A DNA stretch of 64,000 nucleotides from Pseudomonadota bacterium. GTDB lineage: Bacteria > Pseudomonadota > Gammaproteobacteria > Competibacterales > Competibacteraceae. The notes below the pieces were generated by a model. It did not search any database. It was given only the letters and a program-made list of their open reading frames with translations, and was not told the DNA's origin. Below are positions 62,472 through 62,679 of the stretch, piece after piece. Location of the stretch: positions 1-64,000 of the forward strand of contig JAKLIY010000019.1 in NCBI GenBank assembly GCA_022709365.1. Direction: 5' to 3'. A program made the position numbers and the translations under genes. The first letter of the stretch is position 1. Every line of letters begins with the position of its first letter.

Positions 62472-62556
62472 AACCAGCTCCTCTTTTGAAGGATCAATGA
62501 AAAATGGGGAGATATTCCCGATACTCATGCGGCGCGATACGGCCGCCAAGCCGCCA

Positions 62557-62679
62557 CTAGGCTCGACGACCGCAGCGTAGTCGCAGCAAAGCCAGGGAGA
62601 GGACGCGCACGAAATCCGGGCGATGGACGCCAGCGAAAACGGGGAAAAGGGTGATGCGAGATCGATCAGGGTCAAACAT
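62557..62679 (-). CDS. leu leader peptide (attenuator)
   Basis: A 40-residue frame, [20 protein letters not shown] then [20 protein letters not shown], in a different frame from leuA. Five of nine residues near the end (LSLALLRLR) are Leu, using four different codons including the rare CTA. GAGG stands 10 bases before the ATG and the stop is 85 bases before leuA. This is the pattern of transcription attenuation by leucyl-tRNA supply. Possible stems (GGCGGC/GCCGC and GGGA/TCCC before five T, about 62500-62556) follow, but the exact terminator is unresolved. Confidence 0.75.

Follow-up and report, generated by a model that had tools for sequence, protein, structure and literature searches.

The stretch of 64,000 nucleotides analyzed here (the window) belongs to a 4.16-Mb genome of Candidatus Competibacteraceae and carries leuA, encoding a type-2 2-isopropylmalate synthase, which is preceded by hypE (62860-63888, TIGR02124), both on the minus strand. 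The leuA leader contains two small open reading frames, a predicted promoter and several RNA structures (Table 1). Most Competibacteraceae, as well as Azospirillum and Granulosicoccus, have TTGACC or TTGACA in register with a -10-like site 6-9 nt 5' of the ORF1 ATG. Because the -10 of the window promoter ends 8 nt 5' of the ORF1 ATG and this arrangement is conserved in register, ORF1 is probably leaderless, and transcription is predicted to start at or just before ORF1. A terminator-like site at 62840-62814 was set aside, since it coincides with the conserved promoter. At the other end of leuA, the minus-strand frame 58790-60751 encodes a membrane protein with a phosphoglycerol-transferase/LtaS-like sulfatase domain that scores below the NCBIfam cut-offs; its start overlaps the end of leuA by 8 nt, which suggests that this unrelated gene is translationally coupled to leuA.

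Table 1. Features of the leuA leader and of leuA in the window.
Feature	Position	Strand	Description
Predicted sigma70 promoter	62812..62840	-	-35 TTGACC 62840-62835, -10 TTAATT 62817-62812; conserved in register
ORF1	62744..62803	-	Leader peptide 1, 19 aa; conserved in Competibacteraceae
Stem A, 5' strand	62773..62792	-	In ORF1 codons: GCAAUC 62792-62787, CGGUUUG 62779-62773; pairs with 62707-62685
ORF1-stop hairpin	62731..62756	-	CCCGGCCUCC/GGAG..GCCGGG, ORF1 stop codon in loop; 97.8% of cells paired
Stem A, 3' strand	62685..62707	-	CAAACCG 62707-62701, GAUUGC 62690-62685; overlaps ORF2 Shine-Dalgarno sequence
ORF2	62557..62679	-	Leader peptide 2, 40 codons; Leu run LSLALLRL 62601-62578; TAG stop in P2 loop
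Base stem, 5' strand	62598..62603	-	UCCUCU in Leu-run codons (GUC CUC UCC); pairs with leuA Shine-Dalgarno sequence
P2 stem-loop	62540..62572	-	CGGUCGUCGAGCC (62572-62560) / GGCUUGGCGGCCG (62552-62540), loop UAGUGGC; 94.5% of cells paired
P3 pseudoknot	62529..62557	-	Loop GUGGC (62557-62553) with GCCGC (62533-62529); 92.9% of cells paired
T-run	62500..62504	-	TTTTT cited in the initial annotation; unconserved, outside the element
leuA Shine-Dalgarno sequence	62478..62484	-	AGAGGAG, 3' strand of base stem
leuA	60744..62471	-	Type-2 2-isopropylmalate synthase, 575 aa, regulated gene; TIGR00970 826.6 bits (cut-off 697.4)

The initial annotation had proposed a 40-codon frame with its own ribosome site and a leucine-rich end in front of leuA, hidden by a larger open frame. 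This frame, ORF2, is real and has the ribosome site GAGGATTG upstream of its start; the larger frame is present as well and reaches 62738, with the leuA start at 62471 in a frame other than that of ORF2. By a mechanical count, 111 Shine-Dalgarno-preceded start/stop combinations of 25-60 codons exist in the window, and ORF2 is the only frame with at least five leucines in nine residues near its end. In all 17 Competibacteraceae leaders compared, ORF2 is open from a Shine-Dalgarno-linked start and in frame with the codons before the conserved Arg-Leu, with varying lengths. The leucine codons are retained, with two to five leucines in the eight-residue run of every relative. Leucine accounts for 50% of this run and for 2.9% of the remaining ORF2 peptide (17 leaders), and this clustering together with the depletion elsewhere is characteristic of a leader peptide that carries regulatory codons. 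It is nearly certain that the region in front of leuA functions as a leucine leader and, judged from sequence comparison, the ORF2 peptide almost certainly controls leuA through ribosome stalling.

Folding of the single leader sequence was no better than folding of shuffled sequences (z=0.02), and comparative evidence alone was therefore used for the RNA structures. The span of the initial annotation covered ORF2 but not the upstream half of the leader, at 62840-62680, and the second leader frame, the promoter, the pseudoknot and the wider family were missed. ORF1, which lies in this upstream half, contains just two to three leucine codons, one of which is missing together with the stop codon in the leaders L034 and L074. 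The ORF1 counterparts outside the Competibacteraceae are richer in leucine and end directly before the stop codon with ALLRLITPAL (Azospirillum), LLLRLMRPAAV (Granulosicoccus), ALLLRLMRPAAV or QLLLLSSP. The early codons of ORF1 pair with the region in front of ORF2 to form stem A, a duplex of -23.9 kcal/mol in the window, the 3' strand of which includes the ORF2 Shine-Dalgarno sequence GAGGAUUG (62693-62686). In the alignment 92.2% of the stem A cells are paired, rising to 95.2% for the helix over the Shine-Dalgarno sequence; double-change cells number nine compared to 3.3 upon shuffling, and the pairing or the covariation score was reached in none of 500 shuffles. Synonymous TTT/TTC changes in ORF1 are matched by A/G changes on the opposite strand. 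Moreover, the native duplexes of 18 Competibacteraceae (-17 to -27 kcal/mol) were more stable than duplexes with swapped partners (p=0.00015), and for 14 diverse taxa, whose sequences in the Shine-Dalgarno region differ considerably, the native value was -21.8 compared to -13.7 kcal/mol for swapped partners (z=-6.2). The hairpin enclosing the ORF1 stop codon is mostly invariant and for this reason shows little covariation. Modelling a ribosome stalled at the first ORF1 leucine codon increased the openness of the ORF2 Shine-Dalgarno sequence from 0.18 to 0.38 (p=0.001), and a modelled ribosome at the ORF1 stop codon returned it to 0.21. ORF1 and ORF2 are thus connected by what characterizes a translational attenuator, i.e., a stem that sequesters the Shine-Dalgarno sequence and that is opened by a modelled stalled ribosome.

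The end of ORF2 and its stop codon are located within P2, the loop of which pairs with the downstream GCCGC (P3) resulting in an H-type pseudoknot. Changes on both sides were observed at five of the 13 P2 pairs, and GC, CG, AU and UA all occur at the outermost P3 pair. In an alignment of 31 diverse leaders (A3), 94.1% of the P2/P3 cells are paired compared to 88.3% after column shuffling, with 33 double-change cells compared to 10.4, and neither the pairing nor the double-change count was reached in any of 500 shuffles; sliding the P2/P3 partners against each other reduced pairing to 28-58%. The wider alignment was decisive where the narrow alignment A1 was not, as in the latter 40 of 500 column shuffles reached the observed value for cells paired and 13 of 500 that for the covariation score. 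An alignment-free scan identified P2 with at least eight pairs and P3 with at least five in all 31 chosen leaders, with equally high scores in eight of 1860 dinucleotide shuffles. The scanned leaders include Competibacteraceae, Granulosicoccaceae, Azospirillaceae, Rhizobiaceae, Kiloniella, a deltaproteobacterial MAG and four Actinobacteria (L138-L141); for a few of them, e.g., L107 and L148, the scan picked another P3 than that expected from the alignment. The pseudoknot occupies the same place, before type-2 leuA, in gammaproteobacteria, alphaproteobacteria and Actinobacteria. RNAalifold additionally proposed that GCUGCG within the leucine codons pairs with the 3' strand of P3, a candidate for the alternative hairpin that competes with the pseudoknot in the actinobacterial LEU element (see below).

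A covariance model of the core of the element (R1), in which the pseudoknot is not modelled, recovered Rhizobiaceae and Granulosicoccus leaders that were absent from its building set. It finds a single copy of the element in this genome and two further copies in 398 genomes of the phylum, both before leuA.

Next to the pseudoknot, the codons of the leucine run are complementary to the leuA Shine-Dalgarno region. In the window this base stem is short, with UCCUCU (62603-62598) facing AGAGGA (62484-62479), and its -11.5 kcal/mol is weaker than the median swapped partner. The difference between native and swapped partners is modest in Competibacteraceae and near relatives (p=0.003 for 22 and p=0.008 for 18 leaders), and across 21 lineages the native duplexes reach -16.3 compared to -13.4 kcal/mol (z=-4.2, p=4e-5). 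Modelled stalling on ORF2, with pseudoknots left out, shifted the openness of the leuA Shine-Dalgarno sequence non-significantly from 0.26 to 0.34 (p=0.21), and from 0.16 to 0.18 for the window alone.

Several natural variants of the arrangement exist. In two species of another genus (L010, L011), about 211 nt are missing compared to the window and their congener L007, and ORF2 and the pseudoknot are gone; leuA starts there at the former ORF2 start and stem A covers the Shine-Dalgarno sequence of leuA itself. Evidently, stem A can thus act on leuA itself, and some species do without the second stage. In L005 (3220-3323, minus strand), a congener of the window, deletion has removed P2 and ORF2 continues into a TGA overlapping the leuA ATG, which might represent a switch to translational coupling. 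In the Granulosicoccus leaders L093, L095 and L100 the second leader frame (LLLLRLLSCRRPG...) apparently extends as far as the leuA start codon. Leaders of Sphingomonadales-type leuA (L113, L115, L116, L118, L143) encode one Leu-Arg-Leu peptide, behind which lies a long inverted repeat (CGCCCUUAGG...CCUAAGGG), and represent another leucine-leader layout. The leaders L127 and L134, in which MQNLSLALLLMSNGQRK and MQYLSLALLLMSHGQRQ, respectively, are followed by a stop codon, precede leuA with a GC-rich hairpin and a T-run and look like classical transcription attenuators of leuA.

Comparison of the sequences shows both frames, the clustering of leucine, stem A, P2/P3 and the cross-lineage complementarity between leucine codons and the leuA Shine-Dalgarno sequence. 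The conserved RNA parts are stems that sequester Shine-Dalgarno sequences and a pseudoknot, pointing to translational control. Moreover, the complementarities target ribosome sites, and together with the modelled stalling this suggests two-step translational attenuation. The region is therefore probably a leucine-responsive leader in which leuA would be controlled mainly at translation initiation. Under leucine-replete conditions, the ribosome would complete ORF1, stem A would form over the ORF2 ribosome site and ORF2 would be little translated. If charged tRNA-Leu is scarce, the ribosome would stall at the Leu-Arg-Leu codons of ORF1 and cover the 5' strand of stem A, freeing the ORF2 ribosome site. 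A ribosome translating ORF2 would then reach the LSLALLRL run beside the pseudoknot, and its stalling would cover the codons that pair with the leuA ribosome site, enabling translation of leuA. Stalling, the direction of the response, the translational mode, the cascade and the part played by the pseudoknot are predictions of this model, and the first step (ORF1 to ORF2) is better supported than the second (ORF2 to leuA). In its general form the model describes a cascade of two stages: a leaderless leucine peptide would control a second, pseudoknot-bearing leucine peptide, and the latter would gate leuA. Such a cascade, which is absent from Rfam, might act as a sharpened leucine sensor. It would be common to Competibacteraceae, Azospirillaceae and Granulosicoccaceae, with Rhizobiaceae and Actinobacteria having forms of a single stage; for this general form the chances appear evenly balanced.

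Leader peptides with leucine codons are a hallmark of transcription attenuators, and the leu leader of E. coli works in this way. Attenuation of leuA, with a T-run following the leucine-rich peptide, had also been predicted by the initial annotation. Premature termination before leuA, to which the GC-rich hairpin 3' of ORF1 would fit, might be intrinsic, at the CCCGGC hairpin or at the T-run; alternatively, Rho might terminate transcription of an untranslated leader. The conserved leader peptide of this prediction is borne out, but the implied terminator is not. There is no terminator-like hairpin 5' of the T-run, and a run of at least five T before leuA is confined to two of the 17 Competibacteraceae leaders, those of the window and of its congener L005. 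Furthermore, no clear U-tract follows the ORF1 hairpin in the aligned leaders, no intrinsic terminator with a U-tract, as in a classical attenuator, was found between leader and leuA, and the Rfam leader families gave no match up to E=1, with sub-threshold chance hits alone. Since the conserved complementarities moreover target ribosome sites, transcription attenuation is considered unlikely.

The pseudoknot could also be the binding site of a regulatory protein, with the peptides being incidental. Such a role was proposed for the LEU element of Actinobacteria by Seliverstov et al. (2005; PMC1262725), who describe it as a leuA leader peptide with a leucine run, a pseudoknot and a stem between leucine codons and Shine-Dalgarno sequence; the Streptomyces coelicolor mutations reported there are inconsistent with classical attenuation. 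It would agree with a protein site that the pseudoknot is more widely kept than the exact leucine run, the ORF2 of Azospirillum having LRL alone. However, the clustering and depletion of leucine, the conservation of the frame and the complementarity of leucine codons with the Shine-Dalgarno sequence argue that translation of the leader matters, and no partner protein is known here, so that this explanation seems quite improbable. Somewhat less remote, albeit still improbable, is that ORF1 and stem A alone constitute the working switch in this genome and that ORF2 with its pseudoknot represents a second stage in decay. The weak base stem of the window would agree with this, as would the loss of P2 in L005 and of ORF2 in L010 and L011. 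Against such a decay, the window ORF2 keeps five leucines in eight residues and intact P2 and P3, and its element scores 72.4 bits with R1, although the window sequence was among the building set of this model.

Two-step translational attenuation, as the preferred reading, can be compared with known systems. In the translational attenuators ermC and ermA and in the B. subtilis rtpA leader, which responds to Trp, a stalled ribosome frees a sequestered Shine-Dalgarno sequence, and ermA has two leader peptides in series. Here the predicted signal is a shortage of leucyl-tRNA, the second step includes a pseudoknot and the sequence is unrelated. With the classical leu attenuator (E. coli type; Rfam leu leader) the element shares a leucine-rich leader peptide before leuA, but it differs by the lack of a conserved intrinsic terminator or U-tract and of an Rfam match, and by structures that cover ribosome sites. 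The likeness to the LEU element comprises the position directly upstream of the same type of leuA (TIGR00970), the run of leucine codons immediately 5' of an H-type pseudoknot, with the P2/P3 layout shared by L138-L141, and leucine codons complementary to the leuA Shine-Dalgarno sequence (21 lineages; weak in the window alone). The element described here differs in its occurrence in Proteobacteria, its Leu-Arg-Leu core and other stem sequence, and in a second, upstream leucine leader with its own Shine-Dalgarno-sequestering stem, the first frame being probably leaderless. By architecture and position the ORF2 stage fits the LEU element; at the level of sequence, R1, built without the pseudoknot, gave no match to the actinobacterial leaders at E≤1. 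In the main text of a ribosome profiling study of S. meliloti (PMC10117765), a leaderless trp leader, similar to what is predicted for ORF1, and an sORF upstream of leuC are described; no leuA leader was found there. No description of the element or of its doubled arrangement in Proteobacteria was found in the literature searched; Lopatovskaya et al. (2010; Mol Biol 44:128) may treat it, and priority is thus uncertain.

As the element is missing from Rfam, such leaders are unannotated and leuA starts may be miscalled. The mechanism of the actinobacterial LEU element was left unsolved, and the proteobacterial counterparts make this question directly testable. The LEU-like layout occurs in the genetically tractable Azospirillum and Sinorhizobium; it is doubled in many Proteobacteria and was once naturally reduced to one stage. 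If true, the proposed mechanism would extend the known repertoire by a two-step translational attenuator that senses an amino acid.
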